A DNA stretch of 64,000 nucleotides. Source: Ensifer sp. Root278. Its GTDB lineage: Bacteria > Pseudomonadota > Alphaproteobacteria > Rhizobiales > Rhizobiaceae. A program made the position numbers and the translations under genes. Location of the stretch: positions 319,041-383,040 of the forward strand of contig NZ_LMJJ01000023.1 in assembly GCF_001429285.1 (NCBI RefSeq), in the 5' to 3' direction. The notes below the pieces were generated by a model. The model saw only the letters and a list, made by a program, of their open reading frames with translations. It had not been told where the DNA came from and ran no database searches. Positions 40,559 to 58,822 of the stretch are shown here, in pieces; within the stretch, counting starts at the first letter, position 1, and each line of letters opens with the position of its first letter.

Positions 40559-41224
40559 ATGTTCAGTTATACCTTCCATTGGAACCAGGCGCTGAAAGCC
40601 CTGCCGCAGATGCTCGATGGAGCGCTGGTCACCTTGCAGGTGGCTCTGCTCTCGATGGTCATCGGCCTGGCACTGGCGCTGGCGCTGACGGCCTGCCGCC
40701 TGTCCGGCAATCGCATTCTCGGCGGTTTTGCCACCGCTTGGGTCGAAATCGCCCGTAACACGCCGGCGCTGTTCCAGATCTACATGGCCCATTTCGGCCT
40801 CGGCAATTTCGGCATCCACTTGAGCCCCTATACGGCGCTGCTCGCCGGGATCGCCTTCAACAACGCCGGCTATCTCGCGGAAAACTTCCGCGGCGCCCTC
40901 AAGGCCATTCCCGACACCCAGACGCGCGCCGGCCGCTCGCTCGGCATGACGCCGGTGCAGGCCTTCCGCTACATCGTGCTGCCGCAGATGCTGCGCATCG
41001 CCTTCCTCCCCGTTACCAACCAGATGGTCTGGGCAATCCTGATGACCTCGCTCGGAGTTACCGTCGGCATGAACACCGACCTTGCGGGCATCACCCAGGA
41101 ACTGAACGCCCGCTCGTTCCGCACCTTCGAATTCTTCGCGATCGCCGCAGTGATCTACTACCTGATCGCCAAGGCCGTGACGCTGGCAGCCCGTCTGCTC
41201 GCCGCGCGCATGTTCCGCTACTAA
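40559..41224 (+). CDS. Amino-acid ABC transporter permease
   Basis: ATG 40559 gives 221 residues. The HisM/GlnP-type fold includes LPQMLDGALVTLQVALLSMVIGLALALALTACRLS and WVEIARNTPALFQIYMAHFGL, which has the RNTP-type motif. The EAA loop is NFRGALKAIPDTQTRAGRSLGMTPVQAFRYIVLPQMLRI. It pairs with the permease at 41238 and probably corresponds to a HypN/HypP subunit. Confidence 0.88.
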   Translation: MFSYTFHWNQALKALPQMLDGALVTLQVALLSMVIGLALALALTACRLSGNRILGGFATAWVEIARNTPALFQIYMAHFGLGNFGIHLSPYTALLAGIAFNNAGYLAENFRGALKAIPDTQTRAGRSLGMTPVQAFRYIVLPQMLRIAFLPVTNQMVWAILMTSLGVTVGMNTDLAGITQELNARSFRTFEFFAIAAVIYYLIAKAVTLAARLLAARMFRY

Positions 41225-41237
41225 GGAGAGGTGAGAG

Positions 41238-41888
41238 ATGTTCAATACCGCCCTCACCCTTGCTGATCTCGGCTTCCTGCTGCAAGGCGCCCTGATGACG
41301 CTTGCGGTCACCGCCGTCTCGGTCACCGCCGGCACCGTCCTCGGCATCATCTTCGGCGTCGTGCGCAACCAGGTCGGCCCCTACTGGGCCGCACCGCTCA
41401 CCTTCGTGCTCGACATCTTCCGCTCGGTGCCGCTCCTGATCCAGCTGGTGCTTGCCAACGCCTTCCAGGCGATCGCCAAGCTCGGCTGGGCGCCGTTCAC
41501 GACGTCCTGCGTGGTGCTGTCGCTCTACACGGCCGCCTACTGCACGGAGATCGTGCGCGGCGGCATCTCCTCCGTGCCGCCGACGACGCGCCGCGCTGCC
41601 CGCTCGCTCGGCATGACCTGGTGGCAGGACATGCGCTACATCGTGGCGCCGCTTGCGACCCGTGTTTCGCTGCCGTCCTGGATCGGCCTGACGCTCGGTG
41701 TCATGAAGGACTCCGCACTCGTTCTCTGGCTTGGCCTGATCGAGCTGCTGCGCGCCTCGCAGGTGCTCGTCACCCGTCTGCAGGAGCCGCTGCTGATCCT
41801 TCTGATCTGCGGCGCCATCTACTTCCTCATCAGCTTCCCAATCGCCCGGCTCGGCGGTTACCTTGAAAAACGGTGGTCCAATGATTGA
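41238..41888 (+). CDS. Amino-acid ABC transporter permease
   Basis: This 216-residue HisM-type permease has LLQGALMTLAVTAVSVTAGTVLGIIFGVVRNQVG, FRSVPLLIQLVLANAF and the EAA loop RGGISSVPPTTRRAARSLGMTWWQDMRYIVAPLA. It begins 13 bases after the first permease, and its last eight bases overlap the ATPase start, so it is tightly coupled. Confidence 0.88.
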   Translation: MFNTALTLADLGFLLQGALMTLAVTAVSVTAGTVLGIIFGVVRNQVGPYWAAPLTFVLDIFRSVPLLIQLVLANAFQAIAKLGWAPFTTSCVVLSLYTAAYCTEIVRGGISSVPPTTRRAARSLGMTWWQDMRYIVAPLATRVSLPSWIGLTLGVMKDSALVLWLGLIELLRASQVLVTRLQEPLLILLICGAIYFLISFPIARLGGYLEKRWSND

Positions 41889-42603
41889 GATCCAGAACGT
41901 TCGCAAATCCTTCGGCTCGCTGGAGGTTCTCAAAGGCATCGACCTCACCGTCAACAAGGGCGAGGTGCTGACCATCATTGGCGGCTCCGGTTCCGGCAAA
42001 TCGACGCTGCTGACCTGCATCAACGGTCTCGAGCCGATCGATGCCGGCCGCATCCTCGTCGACGGCACCGAGGTCCACGCGAAATCAACAAACCTCAACA
42101 AGCTGCGCAGCAAGCTCGGCATCGTCTTCCAGCAGTTCAATGCTTTCCCGCACCTGACCGTACTTGAAAACGTCATGCTGGCGCCGCGCAAGGTGCTCGG
42201 CCTCTCCAAGGAAAAGGCTGAGGAGAACGCCGTCAAGCAGCTCACGCACGTTGGCCTCGGCGAGAAGCTCGGCGTCTATCCCACCCGCATGTCGGGCGGC
42301 CAGCAGCAGCGCATGGCGATCGCCCGCGCGCTTGCCATGTCGCCGGAATACATGCTGTTTGACGAAGTGACCTCGGCACTCGACCCGCAGCTCGTCGGCG
42401 AAGTGCTCGACACGCTGCGCATGCTTGCGTCCGAAGGCATGACGATGATCTGCGTCACACACGAAATGAAGTTTGCCCGCGAAGTTTCCGACCGCGTCGC
42501 CTTCTTCCACAAGGGCGTGATGGCGGAAATCGCAGCACCCGAGGCGCTCTTCGGCGCGCCGAAGGACCCGGAACTCCAGAAGTTCCTGGCAGCGACGCAC
42601 TGA
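41881..42603 (+). CDS. Amino-acid ABC transporter ATPase
   Basis: ATG 41881 gives 240 residues; an in-frame ATG six codons earlier lies deeper in the permease gene. Motifs: IGGSGSGKSTLLTC (Walker A), FQQFNAFPHLTVLENVML (Q-loop), MSGGQQQRMAIARAL (signature), MLFDEVTSALDPQLV (Walker B) and ICVTHEMKFAREVSDRV (switch His). This is the polar amino-acid uptake type. It provides energy for the hydroxyproline importer and is followed eight bases later by the oxidoreductase gene. Confidence 0.92.
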   Translation: MIEIQNVRKSFGSLEVLKGIDLTVNKGEVLTIIGGSGSGKSTLLTCINGLEPIDAGRILVDGTEVHAKSTNLNKLRSKLGIVFQQFNAFPHLTVLENVMLAPRKVLGLSKEKAEENAVKQLTHVGLGEKLGVYPTRMSGGQQQRMAIARALAMSPEYMLFDEVTSALDPQLVGEVLDTLRMLASEGMTMICVTHEMKFAREVSDRVAFFHKGVMAEIAAPEALFGAPKDPELQKFLAATH

Positions 42604-42610
42604 GCCGATC

Positions 42611-43858
42611 ATGAAGGATGCAGCTCAGCCTGACGTCATCGTCATCGGCGCCGGCGTCGTCGGCCTTTCCGCGGCGATCGCCGCCCAGGCACGGGGACTT
42701 TCCGTTACCGTGCTCGACCGGGAAGGCCCGGCCGCAGGTGCCTCTGCCGGCAATGCCGGGGCCTTCGCCTTTACCGACATCCTGCCGCTCGCCTCTCCCG
42801 GCATCCTCAAAAAGGCGCCGAAGTGGCTGCTCGACCCGCTTGGGCCCTTGAGCGTCCCGCCGGCCTACGCGGTGCAGATCGCCCCGTGGATGTTCCGCTT
42901 CTGGCGCGCCTGCTCGCCGGGCCGCGTTGCGCATTCGACGACGGCGCAGACCGCGATCATGGACCTGTCCAAGGCGGAGCTAGAACCCTTCCTCACCGCA
43001 ACCGGCACCCTGCCGATGCTGCGCAAGGAAGGCAATCTCCAGGTCTATGAAAGCGAAGCCGAACTGAAGGCGTCGCTTCCCGGCTGGAAGGCGCGGTCCG
43101 AGCACGGCATCGAATTCCGCCATATGGGTGCGGCCGAAATGGCCGAGATCCAGCCCGGTCTCGCGCCGCGCTTTACTCATGGCACCTTCACGCCCGGCTG
43201 GTACTCGATCGCCGATCCGAAGCTCTATACCCTCGCGCTCGCGGACCATTTCCGCGCGAAGGGCGGCATCATCGAACGCGCCGAGGTTACGGCATTGCGG
43301 CCGGTCGAGGGTGGCGTGGAACTGACGTCCAACGGCAAGACACGGCGTGCAGACCAGGTTGTGCTATCCGCCGGCGCCTTCTCGCATCAGATCGCCCGGA
43401 CGCTCGGCGAACGTATCCCGCTCGAAACCGAGCGCGGATACAACACCACGCTGCCGCAGGACGCCTTTGACCTGCGCACCCAGGTCACCTTCGGCGGCCA
43501 CGGCTTTGTCGTCACGCGGCTTTCGACCGGCATCCGGGTCGGCGGCGCCGTCGAACTCGGCGGCCTCAAGCTGCCGCCGAATTTCCGCCGCTCGGAAGCG
43601 ATGCTGAAGAAGGCGCAGAAATTCCTGCCCGGCTTCAAAAGCGAAGGCGGCGTGCAGTGGATGGGCTTCCGCCCGTCACTGCCCGACAGCCTGCCGGCGA
43701 TCGGCCGCGCCCGTGCCACGGGGCGCGTGATCTACGCCTTCGGCCACGGCCATCTCGGCCTGACGCAATCGGCCGGCACCGCGCGTCTCGTCGCCGAACT
43801 CCTGACCGGCCAACGGCCGGCAATCGACATCCAATCCTTCTCGGCGCAACGTTTCTGA
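42611..43858 (+). CDS. hypO: FAD-dependent D-hydroxyproline dehydrogenase/oxidase (DadA family)
   Basis: The 415-residue protein begins DVIVIGAGVVGLSAAIAAQARGLSVTVLDRE, a complete FAD-binding GxGxxG with terminal Glu. It continues with GASAGNAGAFAFTDILPLASPG and ends with IYAFGHGHLGLTQSAGTARLVAELLTG, the DAO/DadA C-terminal FAD loop. In this pathway it oxidises cis-4-hydroxy-D-proline to pyrroline-4-hydroxy-2-carboxylate, probably passing electrons to the respiratory chain. It lies between the transporter ATPase and the epimerase, which would supply its substrate. Confidence 0.87.
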   Translation: MKDAAQPDVIVIGAGVVGLSAAIAAQARGLSVTVLDREGPAAGASAGNAGAFAFTDILPLASPGILKKAPKWLLDPLGPLSVPPAYAVQIAPWMFRFWRACSPGRVAHSTTAQTAIMDLSKAELEPFLTATGTLPMLRKEGNLQVYESEAELKASLPGWKARSEHGIEFRHMGAAEMAEIQPGLAPRFTHGTFTPGWYSIADPKLYTLALADHFRAKGGIIERAEVTALRPVEGGVELTSNGKTRRADQVVLSAGAFSHQIARTLGERIPLETERGYNTTLPQDAFDLRTQVTFGGHGFVVTRLSTGIRVGGAVELGGLKLPPNFRRSEAMLKKAQKFLPGFKSEGGVQWMGFRPSLPDSLPAIGRARATGRVIYAFGHGHLGLTQSAGTARLVAELLTGQRPAIDIQSFSAQRF

Positions 43859-43871
43859 TAGGGCTTCGACC

Positions 43872-44873
43872 ATGGCCAACCATACCTTCTCCTGCATCGA
43901 CGGACACACCTGCGGCAACCCGGTCCGGCTCGTTTCCGGCGGCGGGCCGCGGCTCGAAGGGGCCAACATGCTGGAGAAGCGGGCCCACTTTCTGCGCGAG
44001 TTCGACTGGATCCGCACCGGCCTGATGTTCGAGCCGCGCGGCCACGACATGATGTCCGGCTCGATCCTCTATCCGCCGACGCGGCCCGACTGCGACGTCG
44101 CGGTGCTCTTCATCGAGACCTCCGGCTGCCTGCCGATGTGCGGCCACGGCACGATCGGCACCATCACCATGGCGATCGAGAACGGGCTGATCACCCCGCG
44201 TGAACCGGGCAAGCTGTCGATCGACGCGCCGGCCGGCAAGGTGGACATCACCTATCGCCAGGAAGGCCGCTTCGTCGAGGAAGTGCGCCTCACCAACGTG
44301 CCGGGCTTCCTCTATGCCGAGGGCCTGACGGCTGAGGTCGAGGGCCTCGGCGAGATCGTCGTCGACGTCGCCTATGGCGGCAACTTCTACGCCATCGTCG
44401 AGCCGCAGAAGAACTTCCGCGACATGGCCGATCATACCGCCGGCGAGCTCGTCGGCTGGAGTCCGAAGCTGCGCGCAGCCCTCAACGCCAAGTACGAGTT
44501 CGTCCATCCGGAACACCCCGAGATCCAGGGCCTCAGCCACATCCAGTGGACCGGCAAGCCAACCCAGCCCGAGGCGCATGCGCGCAACGCCGTGTTCTAC
44601 GGCGAAAAGGCGATCGACCGATCGCCCTGCGGCACCGGCACCTCGGCGCGCATGGCGCAGCTTGCCGCCAAGGGCAAGCTGAAGGTCGGTGACGAGTTCG
44701 TGCATGAATCGATCATCGGGTCGCTGTTCAAGGGCCGCGTCGAGGCGGCGACCAAGGTTGCCGACCGCGACGCCATCATCCCTTCGATCGCCGGCTGGGC
44801 CCGCATGACCGGCATCAACACGATCTTCATCGATGACCGCGACCCCTTCGCCCATGGATTTGTCGTAAAATGA
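43872..44873 (+). CDS. hypRE: 4-hydroxyproline 2-epimerase (proline racemase family)
   Basis: The 333-residue proline-racemase-fold enzyme has both catalytic cysteines: Cys90 in [11 protein letters not shown] and Cys253 in [13 protein letters not shown]. The Cys/Cys pair separates true epimerases from trans-3-hydroxyproline dehydratases, which carry Thr at the second site. It interconverts trans-4-hydroxy-L-proline and cis-4-hydroxy-D-proline, the first catabolic step. Its stop overlaps the aconitase X start (ATGA). Confidence 0.9.
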
Positions 44874-46561
44874 CCCAATCGATCTCCGCCCGCTGCATTC
44901 TCTCTGGCTCCGCCGATGGCCCCATCATCGCCACCGAGGAGGCGCTGAGCTTCTGGGGCGGGGTCGATCCGGCAACCGGCGTGGTGATCGATGTGCATCA
45001 CCCGCTGCACGGGATCTGTCTCACCGGCGGCATCCTGATGATGCCGTCGAGCCGCGGTTCCTGTACCGGTTCGGGCGTTCTGCTCGACATGGCGCTCACG
45101 GGCCGGGCGCCTGCCGCATTGGTCTTCTGCGAAGCCGAGGACGTGTTGACGCTCGGCGCACTGATTGCGGCTGAGATGTTCGGAAAATCTCTGCCGGTGC
45201 TCAGGCTTTCCCGCGACGCCTTCAAGATGCTCTCGCAGGCAAAGTCAGCACGGATCGGCGCTGGCACGATCGAGGCCGACGGCCTGATTATCCCGGTCGA
45301 ACCGCCGGCGACGGCGGCTCTCGATCTCACTGAAGCCGACCGCGCCATGCTCGATGGCCGCGATGGCGTTGCGGTCCAGCAGGCGATGCGGATCATTTCG
45401 GCGATGGCAGCGCAGCAGGGGGCGGAAAAGCTCATCGACGTGGTCCAGGGCCATATCGACGGCTGCATCTATGCGAGCCCCGCCAACCTCACCTTCGCCG
45501 AAAAGATGGCGAACATGGGCGCCAAGGTTCGCGTGCCGACCACGATGAACGCGATCTCGGTCGACCGCGCCAACTGGCGGGCGCAGGGCGTGCCGGAAAG
45601 TTTCGGCGACCCGGCGGCTAAGCTTGCCGACGCCTATGTGCGCATGGGCTGTCGCCCGACCTTCACCTGTTCGCCCTATCTGCTCGACAGCGCACCGAAA
45701 TCAGGCGAATCCATTGCCTGGGCGGAATCCAATGCCGTCATTTTCGCCAACACCGTGCTCGGCGCGCGCACGGCAAAGCACCCGGATTTTCTCGACCTCT
45801 GCATCGCGCTGACGGGCCGCGCGCCCCTCTCGGGCGTCTATCTCGACGAGCCGCGCAGGGCAAAACGCGTCATCGACGTGGACCTGCCTGAGAATATCGA
45901 CGACGCCTTCTGGCCGCTGATCGGTTACCTCGCTGGCCGGGCAGCCCCCGATCGCATCCCGCTGTTGCGTGGACTTGCGTCCGCACGGCCCTCGCGCGAC
46001 GACCTGAAGGCGCTCTGCGCCGCCTTCGGCACGACATCCGCAGCCCCCATGTTGCATGTGGAAGGTGTGACCCCGGAAGCGGAAGGTGCCGCGGCTGAGG
46101 ATGCCGATCACACGGCCACCACGCGCGCCGACATGGCCGAGGCCTGGGCACATTTCAACGAGGGACCAGCCGAGGTCGAGCTCGTCGCCATCGGCAGCCC
46201 GCACGCCTCGCTCGAGGAATGCCGCGCGCTGGCCGACGCCTTCGATGGTCGCAAGCGGCATGGCGATGTCGCCGTGATCGTGACCGCCGGACGAGACGCG
46301 ATCGCCGCAGCACGGGAAGAAGGTCTGCTGGCTCGACTGGAGGCAAGCGGCATCCAGGTGTTGCCGGATCTCTGCTGGTGCTCGATCTCGGAGCCGGTGT
46401 TCCCGACGAAGACGCGGGCGCTGATGACCAATTCCGGAAAGTACGCCCATTACGGCCCCGGCCTCTCCGGCCGCGCCGTCCGCTTCGGCAGCCTCGCCGA
46501 TTGCGTTGAAGCGGCGCTCACGGGCCGCGTCCCGGCACGTCTGCCGGCCTGGCTGTCGTAG
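44870..46561 (+). CDS. Aconitase X, fused small and large subunits; probable cis-3-hydroxy-L-proline dehydratase
   Basis: The 563-residue protein joins the swivelling small subunit (DUF126, about 10-140: [39 protein letters not shown], spread over that region) to the large subunit (DUF521, about 150-560: [76 protein letters not shown]). AcnX proteins of this kind dehydrate cis-3-hydroxy-L-proline to pyrroline-2-carboxylate using an Fe-S centre. Translation is coupled to the epimerase. Paired with the Ldh2-family reductase at 36735, it would open a second route to L-proline. The exact substrate is inferred. Confidence 0.83.
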
Positions 46562-46577: not shown

Positions 46578-47630
46578 TTAGGCGCCGCGCGGCGGTGCCG
46601 TCGAGGCCCGCGGCACCAGATGGCAGGCGAGTTCGACGCGACGCGGCGGCGCCGGGATGCCCGACAGCGTGTCGCGCAGAAGATCGAGCGCTACCGAGCC
46701 GATCTCGCGCATCGGGATGTGCATCGTCGTCAGCGGCGGATTGAGGAAGGCCGCTTGCGGCAGGTCGTCCATTCCCATGACCGAGACATCGCCCGGAACC
46801 GAAAAGCCCTTTTGCTGGATGCCGAGCATGGCGCCGACGGCAAGGCTGTCGCCGGCCGCGAGCACCGCGGTGAAATCCAGCCCCCGCTCCGAAATCCGCT
46901 GCGTCAGCGCCTGTATCGCAAGCTCGGGCAGCCAGTCCTCGACGGTGACGAGCAAGTCGTCGGTTGCGAGCAGGCCTTTCGCGAGCAGCCCGTCGCGCCA
47001 GCCCTCGTAGCGCCGTTCGATCGTACGGCGCCCCGGCCGCATCAGGAACAGGATGCGCTCGTGGCCGAGCTCGATCAGGTGATCGGTCGCAAGCCGCGCG
47101 CTCGATCGGTTGCAGGGCGTGACGCTCGATAGCCGCATGAACGGGTCGTCGCTGTTCAAGAGCACCACCGGCTTTTCGAAGCCACGGGTCGCGGCAATCA
47201 TACCTTCGTCGTCGATGGTGAGAAACAGCAGACCGGCGACCTGCTCGTCCTCCTCTGCCTCGGCAAGCACGGCCAGTTCTTCGCTTCTATCCGCAATCGG
47301 CCGAGTGACGATTTCGAGATCGAGCGCCTGGGCCCGCTCCTTCAGCCCCTCCAGCACGTAATGCGTAAACTGGTTGCGCACATAGTCGATCATCGCAGCA
47401 CTGGACGCCGCCACGATGACCTTCTGACCGGCGACCGCCGTCGGGATCACGTAGTTGGCGTTCTTGGCCGCTTCCAGCACCTTCTGGCGGATTTCCGCGC
47501 GCACGCCCTTTTCGCCAGCAAGGGCGCGGGAGGCGGTGCTCAAGGAGACGCCGCAGGCTTCGGCGATGTCCTCCAGCCGAACACGCTTGCTCTTCTTGCC
47601 GCGTTTGCCGGGCAGCGGTTTTGCGATCAT
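46578..47630 (-). CDS. LacI-family transcriptional regulator of the uronide cluster
   Basis: ATG 47630 follows GGGAGG and gives 350 residues. The LacI HTH and hinge are standard: VRLEDIAEACGVSLSTASRALAGEKGVRAEIRQKVLEAAKNANYV. A periplasmic-binding-protein-like sensor domain follows (GLLFLTIDDEGMI, SSARLATDHLIELGHERILFLM, DFTAVLAAGDSLAVGAMLGIQQKGFSVPGDVSVMGMDDLPQAAFLNPPLTTMHIP). It is divergent from the GH105 gene and convergent with aconitase X, so it very likely represses the uronide genes until an unsaturated sugar acid binds. Confidence 0.88.
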   Translation of the reverse strand: MIAKPLPGKRGKKSKRVRLEDIAEACGVSLSTASRALAGEKGVRAEIRQKVLEAAKNANYVIPTAVAGQKVIVAASSAAMIDYVRNQFTHYVLEGLKERAQALDLEIVTRPIADRSEELAVLAEAEEDEQVAGLLFLTIDDEGMIAATRGFEKPVVLLNSDDPFMRLSSVTPCNRSSARLATDHLIELGHERILFLMRPGRRTIERRYEGWRDGLLAKGLLATDDLLVTVEDWLPELAIQALTQRISERGLDFTAVLAAGDSLAVGAMLGIQQKGFSVPGDVSVMGMDDLPQAAFLNPPLTTMHIPMREIGSVALDLLRDTLSGIPAPPRRVELACHLVPRASTAPPRGA

Positions 47631-47670
47631 GTGATCCTCCCTTGCCACAATATTGGGAAAAATTTTCATA

Positions 47671-47678
47671 TTGCGCAA
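47671..47678. promoter_or_regulatory. Possible LacI operator in the divergent region
   Basis: TTGCGCAA is an 8-bp palindrome with a central CG, the usual centre of LacI-family sites. It lies 40 bp before the regulator start and 69 bp before the GH105 start, flanked by AT-rich DNA. The site is short, so this is a tentative call. Confidence 0.4.
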
Positions 47679-47747
47679 GAAAAAACATCGTGCCTTTATC
47701 TTTCTCAAGAAGGCCGAGGGAAGAGCGGCTTAAGGAGGAGGAGTGCC

Positions 47748-48848
47748 ATGGGCCTCAACGCCCACGATATTCGCACGGGTCTCGATCGTCTTGTCGGCGG
47801 CATGACCGGTCTCAAGCATGACGGCCGGTTCGATGAACCGAACCTCGACGGGACCGCAGGCGACTACATCAGCTTCGACAGCTGGGAATGGCCGCAGGGT
47901 GTTGGCCTCTATGGCCTGATCAAGCTCTGGCTGTTTACCGGCCGCGAGGACATCCGTCAGCTTATCGAAGGCTGGTACGAAGGCCGCCTTGCTGCCGGGC
48001 TTCCGGAACTCAACGTCAACACGACCGCGCCGATGCTCGGCCTCTCGGTTCTCTGGGCCAAATCCAGGAATCCCCGCTGGAAGCCGCTGCTCGACGACTG
48101 GGCAAACCGGGTGATGAGCGAAATGGGCCGGACGCCGGAAGGCGGATTCGAGCACCATGTCTCCGACAAGGTGAATGACAACGAGCTCTGGGACGACACG
48201 CTCTATATGGTCGCCCTGTTCCTCGCCTCCTATGGCCAGGCGAGCGGCCGGCGCGAACTCGTCGACGAGGCCTCGCGGCAATTTCTCGTGCATGCCCGCT
48301 ACCTTGCCGACACCCAGTCGGGCCTCTGGTTCCATGGCTGGACCTTCGACGGCCGGCACAATTTCGCCCGCGCCCGCTGGGCCCGCGGCAATGCCTGGAT
48401 CACCGCCGGCATGCTCGATTTCTTCGACCTCGCTGAGCTCGCCGCACCGGTCAAGGAATACCTGCGCGGCGTGCTCGTCACCCAGGTCGAGGCACTGCTG
48501 CCGCTGCAGGCCGCTTCCGGCGCCTGGCGCACGCTGCTCGACGACGCGACTTCGTACGAGGAGATCTCGGCGACCGCCGGCATCGGCTACGGCCTGCTCA
48601 AGGGCTATCGGCTCGGCTATGGAACGCCCGCCTGGAGAGCCGCCGGTCTGCGCGCGCTTGAAGTCGTGATGCGCAACATCGACGAGAGCGGCACCGTGCT
48701 CAACGTCTCCTACGGCACACGCATGGGCCACGACCTGCAATTCTACAAGGACATCCCAATTCAGCCGACCGGCTACGGCCAGGCACTGGCAATCCTGTGC
48801 CTCTCCGAAGCCCTGCAGCATGTCGGCCCGGAAGGACAGGCAGCATGA
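47748..48848 (+). CDS. Unsaturated rhamnogalacturonyl/glucuronyl hydrolase (GH105/GH88-type)
   Basis: ATG 47748 follows AAGGAGGAG and gives 366 residues. The (alpha/alpha)6 barrel family is shown by SFDSWEWPQGVGLYGLIKLW, NVNTTAPMLGLSVLWA, NELWDDTLYMVALFLASYG (catalytic Asp in WDD), GLWFHGWTF and ARWARGNAWITAGMLDF. YteR/RhiN-type enzymes hydrate and release the 4,5-unsaturated uronic acid left at the non-reducing end by pectate or rhamnogalacturonan lyases. No signal peptide is seen, so it should act on imported oligosaccharides. Its stop overlaps the kduI start (ATGA). Confidence 0.88.
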   Translation: MGLNAHDIRTGLDRLVGGMTGLKHDGRFDEPNLDGTAGDYISFDSWEWPQGVGLYGLIKLWLFTGREDIRQLIEGWYEGRLAAGLPELNVNTTAPMLGLSVLWAKSRNPRWKPLLDDWANRVMSEMGRTPEGGFEHHVSDKVNDNELWDDTLYMVALFLASYGQASGRRELVDEASRQFLVHARYLADTQSGLWFHGWTFDGRHNFARARWARGNAWITAGMLDFFDLAELAAPVKEYLRGVLVTQVEALLPLQAASGAWRTLLDDATSYEEISATAGIGYGLLKGYRLGYGTPAWRAAGLRALEVVMRNIDESGTVLNVSYGTRMGHDLQFYKDIPIQPTGYGQALAILCLSEALQHVGPEGQAA

Positions 48849-49681
48849 CAATGAAGGTTCTCTACGGGGCCAACCCCGAGGATATCAAAGGCTACGACAC
48901 GGCGCGGCTGCGCCGCGAGTTCCTGATCAGCGATCTCTTTGCAGCTGACGCCGTGAACTTCACCTACACCCATGTCGACCGGCTGATCCTCGGCGGCGCC
49001 ATGCCGAAAACAAAGAGCGTCACCTTTGGATCGGGCGCTGATATCGGCACACCCTATCTGCTTTCGGCGCGCGAGATGGGCATCGCCAATCTCGGCGGCA
49101 CCGGGACGATCACCGTCGACGGTAAGAACTTCGTGCTCGAAAATCGCGACGTGCTCTATGTCGGACGCGGTGCCAAGGAAATCGTCGTTGCAAGCGAGAC
49201 CGCCGACCGCCCGGCCCGCTTCTACATAAACTCGGTGCCCGCCGGTGCCGATCTGCCGCACCGGCTGATCAAGAGGGCGGAGGCAAAGGCGCTTGAGCTC
49301 GGCGACGTCAAGCGCTCGAACAAACGCCGTCTCGTCATGTACATCCACCCGGAAGTCATGCCCTCCTGCCTGCTTCTGATGGGCATTACCGATCTGGCCG
49401 AAGGCAGCGCCTGGAACACCATGCCGCCGCATGTGCACGAGCGGCGCATGGAGGCCTATTGCTACTTCGACATGGCGCCGGAAGACCGCATCGTCCACGT
49501 GATGGGCGAGCCGGAGGAGACCCGGCACCTGATCGTCGCAAACGGCGACGCCGTGCTTTCGCCCGCCTGGTCGATCCATATGGGCGCCGGCACCGGCCCC
49601 TATGCCTTCGTCTGGGGCATGACCGGCGAGAACCAGGAATACAACGACGTCACCCCCGTAGCCTTGGCTGAGCTGAAATGA
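48845..49681 (+). CDS. kduI: 5-dehydro-4-deoxy-D-glucuronate isomerase
   Basis: ATG 48845 overlaps the previous stop and gives 278 residues, the normal KduI length. Signatures include FLISDLFAADAVNFTYTHVDRLILGGAMPK, a beta-rich cupin region (LGGTGTITVDGKNFVL, RDVLYVGRG) and the zinc ligands in WNTMPPHVHERRMEAYCYFDM (two His and Glu). The enzyme isomerises 5-keto-4-deoxyuronate, formed from the unsaturated monomer released by GH105, to 2,5-diketo-3-deoxygluconate for KduD. It overlaps the next gene by four bases (ATGA). Confidence 0.95.
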   Translation: MTMKVLYGANPEDIKGYDTARLRREFLISDLFAADAVNFTYTHVDRLILGGAMPKTKSVTFGSGADIGTPYLLSAREMGIANLGGTGTITVDGKNFVLENRDVLYVGRGAKEIVVASETADRPARFYINSVPAGADLPHRLIKRAEAKALELGDVKRSNKRRLVMYIHPEVMPSCLLLMGITDLAEGSAWNTMPPHVHERRMEAYCYFDMAPEDRIVHVMGEPEETRHLIVANGDAVLSPAWSIHMGAGTGPYAFVWGMTGENQEYNDVTPVALAELK

Positions 49682-52164
49682 GCGATACTATTTTCCATCT
49701 GAAGAAAAGCCTCGTTGCGGGGCAGGCCGTCGGCTACTGGCAGCTCGGCACGATTGCCGAGGAGCGTTTCGACGTGCCGGACCAGCCGATGAAGGGCGAA
49801 ATGGACCCCTTCTTCTTCCTGACCAAGCACAAGAACTTCATTCCGCACGAGTACCCCTGCCGGACGATTTTTGCCGAACAGTTTCGCGGCAAGCGGCCGC
49901 AGGTGCGCGGCACATTCGAGGCCAGCCGCTGGTGGCTGCCCTTCGGATCGCCGCGGCTCGACCTCTCCGGCTTCTGGTTCCGGCCGACACGGCTTGCAAC
50001 CTGGGCCCGCACCTCGATCGAGACCGACACGGGTGGCACCGCCAAGATTCGCCTGGGCACCTGCGGCGGCGCGGTGCTCTTCCTGAACGGCACTGAGGTC
50101 GGCTGGATGGCGCCCTATAGCCGCAATCTCGAGGCCAAGGCCGAATTCGAACTGCCGCTTCAAGCCGGCCTCAACGAAGTCACGATCTTCTTCGACGACC
50201 TCGCCGAACGCGATGCGCGTTATTTCTTCCAGTTCGACTATCTCTCGGGACCGACGGCGCGCGTGGCGCTGCCCGTTCCCTGCCCGAGTGCGGCCGCCGC
50301 CGATATCGAGACCGCACTCGACGGCATGCATTTCGACCGGACCGCCTATTTCGAGGGCGACATCACCCTTCTCTTCGCCGCCGCCCTGCCGCTCGATGTC
50401 AAGGTCAATGTCGCGGTCGAAGGCGACTTCATGTCAACCGAGCGCTTCGACCACGACTTCGTGCTGAAGGCCGGCGACAAGAGGCTGGTTGTCGGACCAT
50501 CGGAAGAGACACCGGCCGATTTCCGCCATTTCCGCATCACGCTTGATGCCAGCGGCTTCGTTGCGTCGCGCTCTCTTGGCGTCGAGATCTGCCACGCCGG
50601 CCGCCAGGGCAAACCGTCGGAGACGCTTGCGCGTCGCATTACCGAGACGCTCGACGAGATCTCGGGCTTTTCCGAACGTGACACGGTCCGCGCCTTCGCC
50701 CGGCTTGCCGGCGGTCGCGGCGGTACCGACACCGACGCGATGATCGAGGAAATTCTGCCCTCAATCGAGGACTGCCACGACTGCGCCGACTTCTCGCTGG
50801 TGCCGCTCATCTGGTCGCGCACCACATGGGGTCAGGATATCGGCGAAAAGACGCGCGATCGCATCGATCAGGCGATCCTTGGCTTCCGCTACTGGATGGA
50901 TGAACCCGGCAACGACGTGCAGTGGTATTTCTCCGAAAACCACGCGCTTCTGTTCCACACTTCGGCCTATCTCGCCGGCCATCTCTTCCCCGAGGCGACC
51001 TTCCGTCGCTCGGGCCGCAAGGGCAGCGAGCAAAGCGCCGTCGGCGCTGCCCGCGTTCGCGCCTGGCTCGATCATTTCGAGGCCTGGGAAATGGCGGAGT
51101 TCAACTCCGCGCCCTATTTCCCGATCGACCTCAAGGGCCTGACGGCACTGGCGGCACTCTCGCCCGACGCCGACATCGCCGACCGCGCCAAGAAGGGCAT
51201 TGTCCGTCTCTGCGAGATCATCGCCCGCTCGGCCCATCACGGCATGGTGACGGCAGCGCAAGGGCGCTCCTACGAGCACACGCTTTGCGCCGGTCGCTCG
51301 CTCGAGCTTTCCGGCGTCGCACGCCTGCTCTGGGGCAAGGGCTGGTACGGCCGCCGCGTGCATGCGCTGCCGCAGCTTGCCGTCTGCCTGCGTGACCACG
51401 GCGTTGTGGTTCCGGAAACACTTGCCGCCGTTGCCTGCCACGAGGATGAGGCCACCCATCAGGAGTGGCGCTTCGCCCAGGGCGAAAACCGCTTCGCGGC
51501 GCTATACCATTACAAAGGCCGCCATTTCGCCATGGGCTCGGCGGCGCATTATCGCTGGAATGAATGGGGCTATCAGGAAACGGTGCTGCACCTGCGCCTT
51601 GGCCAGCGCCCCGAAGCGGCGATCTGGATCAACCATCCGGGCGAAACCATTCAGTTCGGGTACGGCCGGCCATCCTATTGGGGTGGTTGCGGCACCCTCC
51701 CTCGTGCCCACCAGTACAGGGGGCTGGCCGTACTCGACTTTGCGGCCGTCAGCGAACAACCGGACTTCACCCACGCGTGGTTCCCGGTCGCCGAGTTCGA
51801 CGAGAGCAGGGTCAAGGGAAAGCTGGCACTTGCGCGCAGCGGCCGTGGCGCCGTTGCCCTGATCGGCGCAACCGAACTGTTACCGGTGACCGATGGCCCG
51901 TCAGCGAATGCGGAGCTGCGCCAGGCCGGCCACAAGACGCGCTGGATCATCCGGGTTTGCGAAGCCGAAGAGCTTTCCGGGGTGGAAACGAAGTTTGCCG
52001 GGCTCTCCGTCGTGGAAACTGCCGACGGTGCTTTCGTCATCAACGATCCAGACTATGGCCGCATCGTCTTCCGCAACGACGGTTCGACGGAAGCCGAAGG
52101 GCGCACCATCGCCGCCAAGGATTTCACCGTGGCAGGTGAGGCAACCATGCTCGCCGCCAGATAA
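49678..52164 (+). CDS. Unrecognised 828-residue protein in the pectin/uronide operon
   Basis: I do not recognise this family. There is no signal peptide or membrane helix, so it should be cytoplasmic. Residues 1-300 are beta-rich (ATWARTSIETDTGGTAKIRLGTCGGAVLFLNG, LPLQAGLNEVTIFFDDLAERDARYFF), like a jelly-roll domain. Residues about 320-600 are helical and suggest an (alpha/alpha) toroid: DRIDQAILGFRYWMDEP, WYFSENHALLFHTSAYLAGHLF (N421, H422) and QGRSYEHTLCAGRSLELSGVARLLWGKGWYG (R530, Y532, H534). The last 200 residues look beta-sandwich. That layout recalls polysaccharide lyases and some glycoside hydrolases. ATG 49678 overlaps the kduI stop, and the importer follows, so it likely works on an imported uronide. 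Enzyme class is inference. Confidence 0.85.
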   Translation: MSDTIFHLKKSLVAGQAVGYWQLGTIAEERFDVPDQPMKGEMDPFFFLTKHKNFIPHEYPCRTIFAEQFRGKRPQVRGTFEASRWWLPFGSPRLDLSGFWFRPTRLATWARTSIETDTGGTAKIRLGTCGGAVLFLNGTEVGWMAPYSRNLEAKAEFELPLQAGLNEVTIFFDDLAERDARYFFQFDYLSGPTARVALPVPCPSAAAADIETALDGMHFDRTAYFEGDITLLFAAALPLDVKVNVAVEGDFMSTERFDHDFVLKAGDKRLVVGPSEETPADFRHFRITLDASGFVASRSLGVEICHAGRQGKPSETLARRITETLDEISGFSERDTVRAFARLAGGRGGTDTDAMIEEILPSIEDCHDCADFSLVPLIWSRTTWGQDIGEKTRDRIDQAILGFRYWMDEPGNDVQWYFSENHALLFHTSAYLAGHLFPEATFRRSGRKGSEQSAVGAARVRAWLDHFEAWEMAEFNSAPYFPIDLKGLTALAALSPDADIADRAKKGIVRLCEIIARSAHHGMVTAAQGRSYEHTLCAGRSLELSGVARLLWGKGWYGRRVHALPQLAVCLRDHGVVVPETLAAVACHEDEATHQEWRFAQGENRFAALYHYKGRHFAMGSAAHYRWNEWGYQETVLHLRLGQRPEAAIWINHPGETIQFGYGRPSYWGGCGTLPRAHQYRGLAVLDFAAVSEQPDFTHAWFPVAEFDESRVKGKLALARSGRGAVALIGATELLPVTDGPSANAELRQAGHKTRWIIRVCEAEELSGVETKFAGLSVVETADGAFVINDPDYGRIVFRNDGSTEAEGRTIAAKDFTVAGEATMLAAR

Positions 52165-52253: not shown

Positions 52254-53522
52254 ATGAAGAAGACCGGAAAGATGCTCGCGGCGCTCGCCGTCGGGCTCCT
52301 GACGTCGACGGCGGCAATGGCCGGCGACGTGCGCATCATGTGGTACTCCGATGGCGTCGAAGGCGAGGTGTTGAAGGACCTGCTCGACCGCTTCATGAAG
52401 GAGAACCCCGGGATCAACGTGATCCTCGACAACGTGTCCTACAGCGTCGTCAAGGAGCAGCTGCCGGTGCAGCTCGAAGCCGGCAACGGCCCCGACATCG
52501 CTCGCGTCACCAACCTCAAGGCCCAGAGCCAGCACTGGCTCGACCTTAGGCCGCTGGTCGCCGACGCCGCCTATTGGGACGAGAATTTCGGCGGGCAGGC
52601 AGACTGGATGCGCCCCGACGGATCGAACCAGATCTCTGGTTTCATGACCCAGATCACGATTGCCGGCGGCTTTGCTAACAAGACGCTGTTCGACCAGGCG
52701 GGCGTCGCGATCCCCGGCAAGGATGCGACCTGGGACGACTGGGCGAAGGCAGCCAAGCAGGTGGCAGAAAACCAGCAGGTTCCCTTCCCGATGGCGCTCG
52801 ACCGCTCCGGTCACCGCCTCAGCGGCCCGAACCTTGCCTATGGCGGCAACTATATCGGCGCCGACGGCAAGCCGGCGCCGCTTGATGATGGCTCGAAGAA
52901 CTTCCTGAAGACCTTCGTCGGCTGGGTTGCCGACGGCACGATGAGCAAGGACGTCTGGGTTTCGGCCGCCGGCTCCACCTATCGCGCCGCCGCCGACGAC
53001 TTCATCAACGGACAGCTCGTCTACTACTATTCCGGTTCCTGGCAGGTTCCGAACTTCTCGACGAAGATCGGCACCAACTTCGACTGGGTGGCGACCGGCA
53101 GCCCCTGCGGTCCCTCAAACTGCACCGGCATGACCGGCGGCGCCGGTCTGGTGGCGGTCAAATACACCGAGAACCCGAAGGAAGTGGCCAAGGTGATGGA
53201 CTATCTCGCGAGCGAACCGATCGTGAAGGAGTTCTCCGAGCGCACCCTGTTCCTGCCTGCGCATAAGGGCGTGCTTGCCAAGGAGCTCGACTTCAGGACC
53301 GACGACCCCCAGGCAAAGGCGGCGCTCAACGGCTTCGTCGAGGCGAGCAAGTCGCTCTCCGACGAGGCGCGCAAGCTGCCCGGCTGGCTCTGGTCCGACG
53401 CCGTCTACGGCGCGCTCGTCACCCGTGTCAGCCAGGCTGCTGCCGGCGAGATGACAGTCGACGAAGCGTTCACGCGCATCGATAGCGATATCGCCACCAA
53501 GGTGAAAGATAGCGGCAACTGA
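52254..53522 (+). CDS. Periplasmic sugar-binding protein, ABC family 1 (uronide oligosaccharides)
   Basis: This 422-residue SBP_bac_1 protein has a signal peptide (MKKTGKMLAALAVGLLTSTAAMAG) and family segments VRIMWYSDGVEGEVLKDLLDRFMKENPGINVILDNV, LPVQLEAGNGPDIARVTNL, FPMALDRSGHRLSGPN and DDFINGQLVYYYSGSWQVPNFSTKIG. ATG 52254 follows GGAGGAGA. By position it should bind pectin- or rhamnogalacturonan-derived unsaturated oligosaccharides. A 197-bp structured gap separates it from its permeases. Confidence 0.88.
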   Translation: MKKTGKMLAALAVGLLTSTAAMAGDVRIMWYSDGVEGEVLKDLLDRFMKENPGINVILDNVSYSVVKEQLPVQLEAGNGPDIARVTNLKAQSQHWLDLRPLVADAAYWDENFGGQADWMRPDGSNQISGFMTQITIAGGFANKTLFDQAGVAIPGKDATWDDWAKAAKQVAENQQVPFPMALDRSGHRLSGPNLAYGGNYIGADGKPAPLDDGSKNFLKTFVGWVADGTMSKDVWVSAAGSTYRAAADDFINGQLVYYYSGSWQVPNFSTKIGTNFDWVATGSPCGPSNCTGMTGGAGLVAVKYTENPKEVAKVMDYLASEPIVKEFSERTLFLPAHKGVLAKELDFRTDDPQAKAALNGFVEASKSLSDEARKLPGWLWSDAVYGALVTRVSQAAAGEMTVDEAFTRIDSDIATKVKDSGN

Positions 53523-53719: not shown

Positions 53720-54748
53720 ATGAAGGCAGATGTTCCAAGAGGAGGCGGCTCACGCCTTGGCGAGGCGGTCATGGTGCCCGTACGACTGCTGATGGGCGCC
53801 GTCGACGCGCCGCTGCGGTTCGTGCAGCGCCGGCTCGGCATCGGCGGCATGGCGACCTTCTTCCTGCTGCCGAACATGCTGATCTTCGGCATATTCGTGC
53901 TGCTGCCGTTCTTTATCAACTTCGCCTATTCCATGACCGGCGGAACCGCCCTCTTCCTCCCCGACCGAAGCTTCGTAGGCGGCGACCAATATGCGCGCCT
54001 CTTCGATTGCGTGAATTACACCAACCCGAACAGCTGCGCGGAAGACACCTTCTGGACCGCCGTCGGCAACACTGCCTGGTTCGTGGTGCTGCAGGTCACC
54101 CTGATGATCCTGTTTTCGCTGGTGACGGCGCTGATCCTCAACCGCGACCTGATGGCGCGCAGCTTCTGGCGGGCGGTGTTCTTCTTCCCGGTGCTCCTGT
54201 CGCCCGTGGTCGTCGGCCTCATCTGGAAGTGGATCCTGCAGCGACAGGGGCTCTTGAATTTCGGCCTCTACAGCCTCGGCCTCGAGCCGCATACTTGGCT
54301 CAATGATCGCAACTGGTCCTTTGCGGCAACCGTCGGCGTTTCGATCTGGGCGCATATGGGCTTCTACACGCTGATCCTGCTTGCCGGCCTGCAGGCGATC
54401 CCGAAGGATCTCTATGAAGCGGCCGAGATGGACGGCACCCGTCCGGCGCGCGCCTTCTGGCGCATCACCTTGCCACTGCTGATGCCCAACCTGCTCGTCG
54501 TCATCGTGCTCGTGCTTATCCGCGCCGTGCAGATCTTCGACGAGATCTACGTGCTGACCGGCGGGGGCCCAGGCACCAGCACACTCTATATCACGCAATA
54601 CATCTACGAGACCGGCTTCGCGACGCAGTTGCGCAATCCCGGCCTTGCCGCAGCCGCCTCGATCCTGATGGGCGCCGTGCTGGTTGTCCTCACCCTGGTC
54701 CAGCTCGGCCTTGGCCGCAAAGGCGAGAAGAAGGGAGCCCGAAAATGA
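53720..54748 (+). CDS. CUT1 ABC transporter permease (MalF-type)
   Basis: This 342-residue permease has an N-terminal amphipathic stretch of about 50 residues before the first membrane helix (ATFFLLPNMLIFGIFVLLPFFINFAYSM). It has the EAA loop AIPKDLYEAAEMDGTRPARAFWRITLPLLMPNLL and the family mark YVLTGGGPGTSTLYITQYIYETGF. Its stop overlaps the start of the second permease (ATGA), so the pair is made together. It is part of the uronide importer. Confidence 0.9.
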   Translation: MKADVPRGGGSRLGEAVMVPVRLLMGAVDAPLRFVQRRLGIGGMATFFLLPNMLIFGIFVLLPFFINFAYSMTGGTALFLPDRSFVGGDQYARLFDCVNYTNPNSCAEDTFWTAVGNTAWFVVLQVTLMILFSLVTALILNRDLMARSFWRAVFFFPVLLSPVVVGLIWKWILQRQGLLNFGLYSLGLEPHTWLNDRNWSFAATVGVSIWAHMGFYTLILLAGLQAIPKDLYEAAEMDGTRPARAFWRITLPLLMPNLLVVIVLVLIRAVQIFDEIYVLTGGGPGTSTLYITQYIYETGFATQLRNPGLAAAASILMGAVLVVLTLVQLGLGRKGEKKGARK

Positions 54749-55797
54749 GCCGTCTTGCCGAATTCATCTTTCGACGTCGCGGCCGCAATGGCTGGCACTG
54801 GACCGATATCGTCACCTGGGTCTGGCTCATCGGCGGTCTCTTCATCATGTTCGGCCCGGCCGTCTGGCTCGTCGGCTCCTCCTTCAAGTCGCCGGCAGCC
54901 CTTGCCGAATTCCCGCCGACGATCATGCCCTATGTAACGCAGAAGGCGACCGTCGAAGGTTACGACAAGCCGCTCGATCTCTACGAGGTGACGCTGCCGG
55001 ATGGCAGCAAGAAGGTGCTCGCCGAGGTTCGCCGCATCGGCATCGTCAGCCAGATGGTCGCGCCGGAGAAGCCGACCGAGATCGTCAAGGTCAACATCGC
55101 CGAGCGCACGCCGGTGCGCACAATGTCCTTCGCCACCTCGAACTACAGCGAGCCCTTCACCCATTTCGATTTCGTCCGCTATCTCTGGAACTCCGTTTTC
55201 GTCACGGTGACGGCGACGGTGATTACGCTCATCGTCAATTCGATGGCCGCCTTCGCGCTCAGCAAATACGAGTTTCGCGGCCGCACCTTCGCGATGCTCT
55301 TGATCCTCGCCACCCTGATGGTGCCGCTCTCGGTGATCATGGTGCCGCTCTATTCGATCGTCTCGGCGCTTGGCCTCTTCAACAATCTCTGGGGGGTGAT
55401 CCTGCCGACGGTCGCGACGCCGACCGGCGTCTTCATCCTGCGCCAATACATGCTGACCATCCCCGACGAGCTGATCGACGCCGCGCGCATGGACAAGGCA
55501 TCGGAGTGGCAGATCTACTGGCGCATCATCCTGCCGCTGACGGCACCGGCGCTCGCTGTGCTTGCGATCTTCTCCGTCGTCTGGCGTTGGAACGACTTCC
55601 TCTGGCCGCTGATCGTGCTCTCCCGCAAGGAGCTTTATACGCTGCAGGTGGGCTTAAGCATCTATTCCGGCGAGCTGAACGTGCAGTGGCATTTCATTCT
55701 CGCCATGACGGTCGTGACCATGATCCCGGTCGTCCTGGTCTTCATCTTCCTGCAACGCTTCATCACCACCGGCATTGCCGGCACCGGACTGAAATAA
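54745..55797 (+). CDS. CUT1 ABC transporter permease (MalG-type) with periplasmic insertion
   Basis: This permease has 350 residues, about 70 more than most MalG-type subunits. The extra lies after the first helix ([24 protein letters not shown]): a hydrophilic, beta-like periplasmic segment from about 62 to 130 ([47 protein letters not shown]). The EAA loop is normal ([33 protein letters not shown]). The insertion may contact the binding protein or a large oligosaccharide. Confidence 0.9.
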
Positions 55798-55807
55798 GGG
55801 GGCACCC

Positions 55808-56893
55808 ATGGGCCACATCAAGCTTACCAATGTGACCAAGTCGTTCGGCGCCGTCGACGTGCTTCATGGCATCAACCTGGATATCAAGGACGGCGAGCTC
55901 GTCGTCTTCGTCGGCCCCTCCGGCTGCGGCAAGTCCACGCTGCTGCGCATGATCGCCGGGCTGGAAAAGCCGACCGGCGGAGAACTCGCGATCGACGGCA
56001 AGGTGGTCAACGACGTGCCGGCCGCCGACCGCGGCCTCGCCATGGTCTTCCAGTCCTACGCGCTCTATCCGCATATGAGCGTGCGCCAGAACCTCGCCTT
56101 CGGCCTCGAAAACACCCGCATGCCGAAGACGGAGATCGCCGAGCGTATTGGGGAAGCCGCGCGCATGCTGGAGATCGAGCCCTATCTCGAGCGCCGGCCC
56201 GGGCAGCTTTCGGGTGGCCAGCGCCAGCGCGTCGCGATCGGCCGCGCGATCGTGCGCCGCCCCGTTGCCTTCCTGCTCGACGAGCCGCTGTCGAACCTCG
56301 ACGCTGAACTGCGCGGCTCCACCCGCGCCGAGCTTGCGGCCCTTCACGCCCGGCTGTCGGCAACGATGATCTATGTGACACACGACCAGGTAGAGGCGAT
56401 GACGCTCGCCGACCGCATCGTCGTCCTGCGCGCCGGCCGCATCGAGCAGATCGGCACGCCGCTCGAACTCTATAACAAGCCGGCCAACCGCTTCGTCGCC
56501 GGTTTCATCGGCTCGCCGCACATGAATTTCCTCGAAGGCACGCTGGAAGCGGCCGGCACGGGTTCGGCGGTCGCAACGCTGAAGGGCGGCCACCGGCTGC
56601 AGGTTCCGATCGCCGACGCAGCAGCTGCAGCCGGCTCGCCCATCACGCTCGGCGTCCGGCCGCAGCACATCACGCTTGATACCGGTGAAAGCGGCATTCC
56701 CGCCAAGATCCGCCTCGTCGAGGCGCTCGGTTCCGAAACCGTGCTGCATGCCGATGTCGCCGGCCAGAAGATCCTGGTCGTCGCCCCCGGTCAGCATGAC
56801 CTGGCACCGGGATCGGAAATCAGGCTGTCGCTCGCGGCTGCCCCCATACATCTCTTCAACGACAAGGGGCTTCGCCTTGAACGCGCTGTTTGA
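55808..56893 (+). CDS. CUT1 ABC transporter ATPase
   Basis: This 361-residue MalK/UgpC-type subunit has [70 protein letters not shown] and [15 protein letters not shown], followed by a TOBE-type regulatory domain ([10 protein letters not shown]). It completes the uronide importer. Its last 17 bases overlap the kduD start, tying import to catabolism. Confidence 0.92.
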
Positions 56894-57635
56894 CCTCACA
56901 GGCAAGACCGCCCTCGTCACCGGCGCCCGTACCGGCCTCGGCCAGGGCATGGCTCTGGCGTTGGCGCGGGCCGGCGCCGATATCGCCGCCCTCGGTTCGA
57001 CGCCCATGCCGGAGACGGCAGTGCTGGTACGAGAGGCGGGTGTTCGCTTTCACGAACTGACCGTCGATCTCTCCAGGCCTTTCGACGCGGCGTCGGCGAT
57101 CGGCGACGTCGTGGCTGCCCTCGGCGGCATCGACATCCTCGTCAACAATGCCGGCATCATTCGCCGCGCCGACCTGCTCGACTATTCCGAGGACGACTGG
57201 GACAGCGTGCTCGACGTCAACCTGAAGGCGGCCTTTCTGCTGTCGCAGGCCGCAGCGAGACACATGGTTTCGACCGGACGCGCCGGCCGGATCGTCAATG
57301 TCGCCTCGATGCTGACCTTCCAGGGCGGCATTCGCGTGCCGGCCTATGCCGCCTCGAAGCACGGCATCGCCGGCCTCACCAAGGCGATGGCCAACGAGCT
57401 TGCGCCGTGCGGGATTACCGTCAATGCGATCGCCCCGGGCTACATGGCGACCGACAACACCGAGGCGCTGCGCAACGACCCCGATCGCAACGCCCAGATC
57501 TCCGCCCGCATTCCGATGGGGCGCTGGGGCACGCCCGACGATCTCGCGACCGCCGTGCTCTTCTTCGCAGCACCCGCCTCCGGCTATGTCACCGGAACGG
57601 TGCTGCCGGTCGATGGCGGCTGGCTCGTTCGCTAG
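56877..57635 (+). CDS. kduD: 2-dehydro-3-deoxy-D-gluconate 5-dehydrogenase (SDR)
   Basis: I start at TTG 56877 (AAGGGG eight bases upstream), which gives 252 residues, the normal KduD length, and begins [24 protein letters not shown], the SDR cofactor motif. NNAG, NVASM (Ser) and YAASKHG (Tyr/Lys) form the catalytic set. The short [11 protein letters not shown] and [15 protein letters not shown] segments fit the KduD subgroup. It reduces 2,5-diketo-3-deoxygluconate from KduI to 2-keto-3-deoxygluconate. A KDG kinase and aldolase are not in the window. No ATG is available near this start. Confidence 0.88.
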
Positions 57636-57644: not shown

Positions 57645-58556
57645 ATGTCCTTCTCCGCCGAGCGCCTGCGCACGCTTCTCGGTCTCGCTGATACGGAACT
57701 GTTCCTGGATGTCTGCGTGATGGAGGATCGTGGTTCTTACATCGTCGAGAGGCTGAGCTTTCGCACACCTCGCAACGGCGCTGAAATCCGCGGCTTTCTG
57801 ACACGACCACCCGTCAACGACGGGCCTCGACCAGCGATCCTCTACGCCCATGCCCATGGCGGACGCTACGAGATCGGTGCGAACGAACTGCTTGATGGCC
57901 GGCCGGCACTGCTCAGCCCGCCCGGGCCCGTTCTCGCGGAGCACGGCTTCGTTACCCTGTGCATCGACATGCCGACGTTCGGAGAGCGCTCGATCGTAAG
58001 AGAGAGCGCCGCGACAAAGGCTGCCCTCTGGTATGGCGGAACCCTTTTCGGCCAGATGCTTTCCGAGCAGCAGGCAGCGCTCACTTGGCTTTCAATGCGT
58101 AACGACGTCGACCCCGCGCGCATCGGCATGACCGGGATCTCGATGGGCGCCACCCTTTCCTACTTCCTGGCTGCGCTCGACCCCCGGATCGCGGCAATCG
58201 CCCACCTCTGCTGCTATGCGGATTTCGCCACGCTCGTCGCAACCGGCGCTCACGATCTGCACGGCCATTATCTCACGATCCCCGGTCTGCTCGCGGAGAC
58301 CTCGACTGGCGAAATCGCCGGGCTCGTTGCCCCGCGGCCACAATTGATCTGTGTGGGGCTCGACGATCCGCTGACGCCGCCACAAGCGGTGGAGCGGGCC
58401 CATGCCGCAACGCGCGCCGCCTATCGGGCGGCTGGCGCCGAGCGCAACTTATTCTTGGTTGCAGAGCCCGGCATCGGCCACGTCGAAACGCTGACCATGC
58501 GGGAGGCGGTTCTGGCCTTCCTCTCCCACCACCTCGGCACGCCAGTCAGCGGTTGA
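57645..58556 (+). CDS. Alpha/beta hydrolase, possible oligouronide esterase
   Basis: The 303-residue alpha/beta hydrolase lies nine bases after kduD and has AILYAHAHGGRYEIG (oxyanion region), GMTGISMGATLSYFLAAL (nucleophile Ser in GxSxG, near 166), CVGLDDPLTPPQA (acid) and GIGHVETLTMRE (His). No signal peptide is present, so it is cytoplasmic. It resembles dienelactone-hydrolase and acetyl-xylan-esterase types. In this operon it could remove acetyl or methyl groups from imported pectic fragments; that is inferred from position. Confidence 0.8.
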   Translation: MSFSAERLRTLLGLADTELFLDVCVMEDRGSYIVERLSFRTPRNGAEIRGFLTRPPVNDGPRPAILYAHAHGGRYEIGANELLDGRPALLSPPGPVLAEHGFVTLCIDMPTFGERSIVRESAATKAALWYGGTLFGQMLSEQQAALTWLSMRNDVDPARIGMTGISMGATLSYFLAALDPRIAAIAHLCCYADFATLVATGAHDLHGHYLTIPGLLAETSTGEIAGLVAPRPQLICVGLDDPLTPPQAVERAHAATRAAYRAAGAERNLFLVAEPGIGHVETLTMREAVLAFLSHHLGTPVSG

Positions 58557-58761: not shown

Positions 58762-58822
58762 TATTCGAATGAGCGAGCCGATAAGCAGCGATCCCCGTCT
58801 CAGCCAGCGGCCGCGGGAGAGC

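Follow-up and report, generated by a model that had tools for sequence, protein, structure and literature searches.

Polysaccharide lyases (PLs) of the (α/α)-toroid type share, as set out in an excerpt of PMC12088678, an Asn/His that neutralises, together with a Tyr and, in most cases, a β-sheet His, the site being N186/H187, Y239 and H405 in PL39 and N201, Y258 and H413 in PL17. The table in that excerpt gives the distance from Asn/His to Tyr as 52-57 in PL12, 15, 17, 21 and 39; PL23 is described with 63 (Asn236 to Tyr299), and PL8 as arranged otherwise (His345, Tyr461). For Alg17c, a section of PMC4765187 has Asn201/His202 neutralising and Tyr258 as the acid, while a section of PMC8286568 gives His311, Tyr365 and His531 as the PL15 residues and states that the proposed PL17 base, Tyr450, is not conserved. 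Here we describe the open reading frame, operon, conservation, predicted fold class and genomic linkage of P0001, a protein of 828 residues encoded in a 64,000-nucleotide stretch of Ensifer sp. Root278 DNA (GCF_001429285.1, NZ_LMJJ01000023.1, 319,041-383,040 of the forward strand), hereafter the window, to which coordinates refer unless a locus handle precedes them. P0001 is probably a cytoplasmic β-eliminating uronide lyase, combining a known fold class, as modelled, with an unusual architecture; this confidence covers the class of reaction and is much lower for any single substrate. An earlier note made from the DNA alone had proposed a new lyase or hydrolase here, an interpretation that our analysis partly supports.

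Predicted fold of P0001

The full-length AlphaFold2 model of P0001 (pLDDT 86.8, pTM 0.87) has the β / helical / β layout anticipated in the earlier note. Its Foldseek list is headed by enzymes of glycoside hydrolase (GH) family 2, with the PL15 lyase Atu3025 at rank 46 (E 1.3e-5, probability 1.00), and the catalytic half was therefore folded separately. Modelled from 40 alignment rows, residues 305-828 (pLDDT 87.4, pTM 0.88) have 20 matches in the PDB at E<=0.001, of which 19 are chains of (α/α)-toroid-type polysaccharide lyases and one is human dermatan sulfate epimerase 1. The lyase chains are PL17, GAGases, PL15, PL8, PL39 and chondroitinase, with family numbers taken in part from PMC12088678. 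The model supports placing the catalytic half in the fold class of lyases with an (α/α) toroid and an antiparallel β sheet, the outcome for which the note had suggested a structure prediction and fold search as a check.

GH2 enzymes are defined by a TIM-barrel catalytic domain with two Glu. Because residues 305-828 alone gave no GH2 enzyme among the 50 best matches listed, the GH2 matches are attributed to the N-terminal β domains, and membership of GH2 was rejected: the catalytic half is modelled as helical plus β with lyase fold matches, and the GH2 likeness is confined to the N-terminal part. A viral fold library gave no useful match to the P0001 model.

Conserved residues and candidate active site

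The alignment held 104 sequences, the window's own included, with repeat loci of one gene dropped and one row (L069) beginning at a contig end. N421, H422, H427, Y480, R530, Y532, Q633, N652 and H699 are identical throughout; the named residues give the same conservation result in 43 rows at <88% identity, and in the catalytic-half alignment of these 43 rows Y480 and Y532 are the sole invariant tyrosines. The note had drawn its site from N421, H422, R530, Y532 and H534. The first four hold, whereas position 534 varies (91 His, 11 Lys, 1 Leu, 1 Arg) and H534 was therefore dropped from the proposed site; Y480, the likeliest catalytic Tyr, had no place in it.

H422 and Y480 lie 58 residues apart in 101 of the 104 sequences by motif search, and in the remaining three by eye. 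This is one residue beyond the 52-57 range of PL12, 15, 17, 21 and 39, and of eight PL17-like and two PL15-like relatives, nine have an equivalent spacing of 54-57 and one has 74. On the strength of this near agreement in spacing Y480 is, as far as sequence can indicate, the likeliest catalytic acid. R530 and Y532 would serve substrate binding. The catalytic sheet residue is uncertain, with Y632, H653 and H699 as candidates: position 632 is Tyr in 91 rows, His in 12 (the distant clade) and Phe in one, which is archaeal, H653 is kept in 103 rows, and the equivalence of these three positions to the catalytic sheet residue was judged by eye.

We infer activity, residue roles and substrate as follows. 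The ABC importer of the operon would take up a short oligosaccharide with a 4-linked hexuronate, from which P0001 would take the C5 proton and expel the O4 sugar, leaving a 4,5-unsaturated uronyl residue. N421 and H422 would neutralise the carboxylate and Y480 would be the general acid, with a C-terminal sheet residue perhaps helping to accept the proton, either Y632 (for which the distant clade has His), H653 or H699. The GH105 enzyme would then release DHU by hydrolysis of the unsaturated residue, for KduI and KduD to process further. If this is true, the source of the GH105 substrate inside rhizobial cells is explained, the uronic-acid lyases gain a sequence family and a gene labelled 'hypothetical protein' gains a function.

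Sequence family and distribution

P0001 had no match in Pfam (E<=10) or NCBIfam (E<=1); against PDB sequences it had three matches, all at E 0.26 or worse, and a 25-sequence profile had five, at E 0.095 or worse. PF07940 (Hepar_II_III_C) was not matched at E<=10 by P0001 or by any of six distant relatives, and the PDB sequence searches found no sequence link to PL35, PL8 or PL39. The match to a characterised family that would have spoken against the note's proposal thus did not appear in these searches, by which P0001 is best read as a new sequence family. A literature search of open-licence papers found no description of it.

Full-length relatives at 58-93% identity occur in many Rhizobiales, mostly with gene order unchanged or similar, so P0001 is no chance open reading frame; relatives at ~30-53% identity occur in Rhodobacterales, Alteromonadales and three genomes from another class of the phylum. 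A match was present in 8 genomes from an even draw of 199 of the order and in 6 of 299 of the phylum (own genome counted in both), in the own genome only among 289 of the class, and in 3 of 148 from the order of genome G626. The scan of genome contigs confirmed 269 relatives; only the best 80 entered the set, which therefore leans to close relatives. Among plasmids 200 records match: 123 are from Rhizobium, 40 are from Pseudosulfitobacter, and the rest include Alteromonadales and haloarchaea; in the best 40 of these 200 the annotated matching genes are labelled 'hypothetical protein'. One haloarchaeal relative (L121 11803-13788, ~26% identical) lies amid Gfo/Idh/MocA oxidoreductases on a plasmid stretch that also encodes a heparinase II/III protein.

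Operon and linkage to GH105

The gene order is GH105, kduI, P0001, substrate-binding protein (SBP), two permeases, UgpC-type ATPase, kduD and α/β hydrolase, with a LacI-type gene divergent (Table 1). As the note had it, exactly, the P0001 gene lies between kduI and the importer, its start codon sharing the letters ATGA with the kduI stop (the kduI frame ends at 49681); the GH105 stop (48848) overlaps kduI in the same way, provided that kduI starts at 48845. No signal-peptide-like stretch was seen in P0001, again in agreement with the note, by a crude hydropathy measure used without a signal-peptide predictor: the top 11-residue value in the first 45 residues is 0.81, against 2.33 for the operon SBP, 0.69 for GH105, 1.52 for kduI and up to 1.78 for some distant P0001 relatives.

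GH105 matches (tblastn with two GH105 queries, covering at least 45% of query length) were found in 82 of 101 loci with a P0001 relative, within 2 kb in 80 of them, and after clustering at 70% identity in 15 of 19 clusters; kduI is present in 73 of the 101. Importers vary across loci, being of the SBP_bac_1-type ABC, SBP_bac_5-type ABC, TRAP (Rhodobacterales) or MFS (Catenovulum) kind, as do gene order and extra enzymes, GH28 being present in one clade. Of the 19 loci without GH105, 15 form an R. leguminosarum/etli clade, two belong to one genus (genomes G005 and G179), one is archaeal and one is truncated by a contig end. In G023, a member of that clade, and in G695, the contig of the P0001 relative carries no GH105 gene while other contigs do. 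In this clade, each of the 14 loci scanned has a TTGCGCAA site ~130-230 bases upstream of the putative lyase gene, the fifteenth locus, L112, being outside the operator scan, and the Catenovulum locus L117 has one such operator site. A whole-genome search for further regulon members with the operator pattern, at <=3 mismatches, returned only the site listed in Table 1.

Table 1. Features of the window, with coordinates, strand and basis of assignment
Feature	Position	Strand	Basis
P0001, 828 residues, proposed cytoplasmic uronide lyase	49678..52164	+	ATG start; open reading frame and predicted fold
N-terminal part (residues 1-304), β-rich, probably GH2-like jelly roll plus Ig-like	49678..50589	+	model, Foldseek
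Helical middle (residues ~305-590), (α/α) toroid	50590..51447	+	model, Foldseek
N421-H422 of SENH motif, proposed carboxylate neutralisers	50938..50943	+	104/104 sequences
Y480, proposed general acid	51115..51117	+	104/104; 58 residues past H422
R530 and Y532, low-confidence loop, putative substrate binding	51265..51273	+	104/104
C-terminal β domain (residues ~591-828), G-[YHF]-Q-[EQ]-[TH] motif at 631-635	51448..52161	+	model, alignment
LacI-type regulator, start codon uncertain	46578..47708	-	named from sequence; matches annotated LacI gene in L115, L116, L120
Proposed operator GGAAAAATTTTCATATTGCGCAA	47656..47678	+	pattern search
GH105, presumed unsaturated-uronyl hydrolase	47748..48848	+	PF07470 267.5 bits; NF051900 540.3 bits (NCBIfam name: beta-galactosidase BglB)
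kduI, DHU isomerase	48845..49681	+	NF002091 380.7 bits
ABC importer SBP	52254..53522	+	PF01547
ABC permease 1	53720..54748	+	PF00528
ABC permease 2	54745..55797	+	PF00528
UgpC-type ATPase	55808..56893	+	NF008653 481 bits
kduD, start uncertain, after importer genes	56883..57635	+	TIGR01832 366 bits (cut-off 338.85)
α/β hydrolase, possible esterase	57645..58556	+	PF02129 and PF01738 over cut-off; PF05448 slightly below

The α/β hydrolase has weak matches to deacetylases and esterases. Beyond it, at 58769-63677, stand consecutive PrkA, YhbH-like and SpoVR-like genes, a common gene triplet. Elsewhere in the genome, at L167 7879-14791, a second GH105 gene is accompanied by an ABC importer and a gene judged GH28-like from its sequence, probably another pectic-oligosaccharide locus. 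Another contig encodes a protein closely related to Atu3025, the PL15 alginate lyase of known structure (L166 / L123, contig C7, ~67619-69940).

Candidate substrates

The pointers to a substrate diverge. GH28 of one clade (NCBIfam PglB) suggests galacturonate, whereas GH38, together with an AGE epimerase in Catenovulum, would fit mannose; the branched rhamnogalacturonan named in the earlier note found no specific support. Tentatively, and with more doubt than for the class of reaction, P0001 and its relatives may be founding members of a new lyase family of cytoplasmic exo-lyases that join a GH2-like module to a toroid, cleave a sugar from a plant or algal hetero-oligosaccharide uronide and feed GH105, with a Tyr in the main clade in place of the sheet-domain catalytic His and, in one genus, a GH38 mannosidase replacing GH105.

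A hydroxyproline catabolic cluster (37928-46561) ends directly before the LacI gene and encodes 4-hydroxyproline epimerase, cis-3-hydroxyproline dehydratase, a D-amino acid dehydrogenase-like protein, aldehyde dehydrogenase and an amino-acid ABC importer named from sequence. Hydroxyproline genes stand near the operon in close relatives only, bar one distant locus (3-4 of 101), and as a pointer to arabinogalactan protein they were rejected because AcnX is near the operon in just 3 of 101 loci.

Alternative readings

Several observations weigh against a lyase assignment. The 20 fold matches of residues 305-828, obtained with a predicted model, have modest query-normalised TM-scores (0.30-0.48) and rmsd values of 9.8-16.8 Å, which support the fold class but fall short of superposing individual residues, and model confidence is lowest at residues 410-419 and 527-538 (pLDDT <50 in the latter), both within the proposed site. 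Profile-profile comparison (hhalign) of the P0001 family gave probability 0.2 and E 0.33 with eight PL17-like sequences, and probability 2.8 and E 0.016, with the motifs out of register, with two PL15 sequences; the profiles were shallow, and a GH105 control was likewise negative (probability 0.1). The spacing argument does not reach PL8, which nevertheless supplies some of the fold matches, or PL23. GH105 is missing from the 19 loci described above, and G005 and G179, two of 13 genomes searched, have a P0001 relative and no GH105 over the cut-off, with a GH38 α-mannosidase near the gene (L104 9916-16596 and L102 5553-12235). The operator was not seen near the P0001 relative in the distant loci L103, L105, L110, L115, L116, L118 and L119. 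The NCBIfam name of the GH105 neighbour also counts on this side.

That name underlies one rival, in which the neighbour is truly a β-galactosidase, the operon has nothing to do with unsaturated uronides and P0001 plays a different part. NF051900 scores well over its cut-off of 420 bits. Against this, kduI and kduD share the operon and the closest PDB sequence matches of the neighbour are GH105 entries, with YteR more distant, and we consider this rival very unlikely. BglB presumably has its origin in the same work as Agrobacterium PglA and PglB. These two are tied to polygalacturonate use in part of a review (PMC6683767), and the β-galactosidases of Cheng 2017 were set aside, the domains described in an excerpt of that paper (PMC5342196) differing from those of P0001.

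The hydrolase that the earlier note had offered beside a lyase is disfavoured. A toroid-fold glycoside hydrolase with an imported uronide as substrate and an invariant Asp/Glu catalytic pair could draw on D408, E420 and D484, which never vary in the 43 rows, and D413, which is kept in 42, on the resemblance of the N-terminal part to GH2 accessory domains and on weak fold matches to GH9, GH81 and GH146 at ranks 24-30. Yet none of the 20 matches at E<=0.001 is a glycoside hydrolase; the first stands at rank 24 (E 8.7e-3, probability 0.28), the likeliest among the matches listed is a GH81 enzyme at rank 27 (E 3.5e-2, probability 0.63), and a β domain follows the toroid as in the matched lyases, which makes a hydrolase unlikely. 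That P0001 carries out just the first half of lyase chemistry, as a uronyl C5-epimerase, seems hardly probable at all. Fold match 4, human dermatan sulfate epimerase 1, has the top query TM-score of the 20 (0.48), but if P0001 were an epimerase, none of the identified operon genes would provide unsaturated uronide for GH105, kduI and kduD. The remark in the note that no known cytoplasmic lyase is encoded nearby is true of the scanned operon genes, and its lyase candidate agrees with the fold matches, the invariant N421, H422, R530 and Y532 and the GH105 linkage.

Comparison with known lyases

Read as a lyase, P0001 is predicted to share the fold class of the PL35 GAGases and the PL8 and PL39 lyases, which are among its fold matches; an Asn/His, Tyr, His triad is described for PL35 in the excerpt of PMC12088678, and PL8 differs in spacing. 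The PL15 exo-lyases (Atu3025, PDB 3A0O/3AFL; fold matches 5, 10 and 14) have the same β / toroid / β layout, and their His...Tyr spacing is 54 in two relatives against 58 in P0001. The Atu3025 relative matches Hepar_II_III_C and DUF4962, whereas P0001 matches neither, lacks an SHSHGD-type motif, carries a GH2-like N-terminal part and has no detected profile similarity to PL15. The PL17 oligoalginate lyases (Alg17c and the Zobellia enzyme 7BJT) differ in the motif around the Tyr (EFNSAPY against EGPYY) and show no profile similarity, but they provide the best fold match and, like P0001, have an Asn-His pair followed by a Tyr, at a distance of 56-57 in seven of eight relatives.

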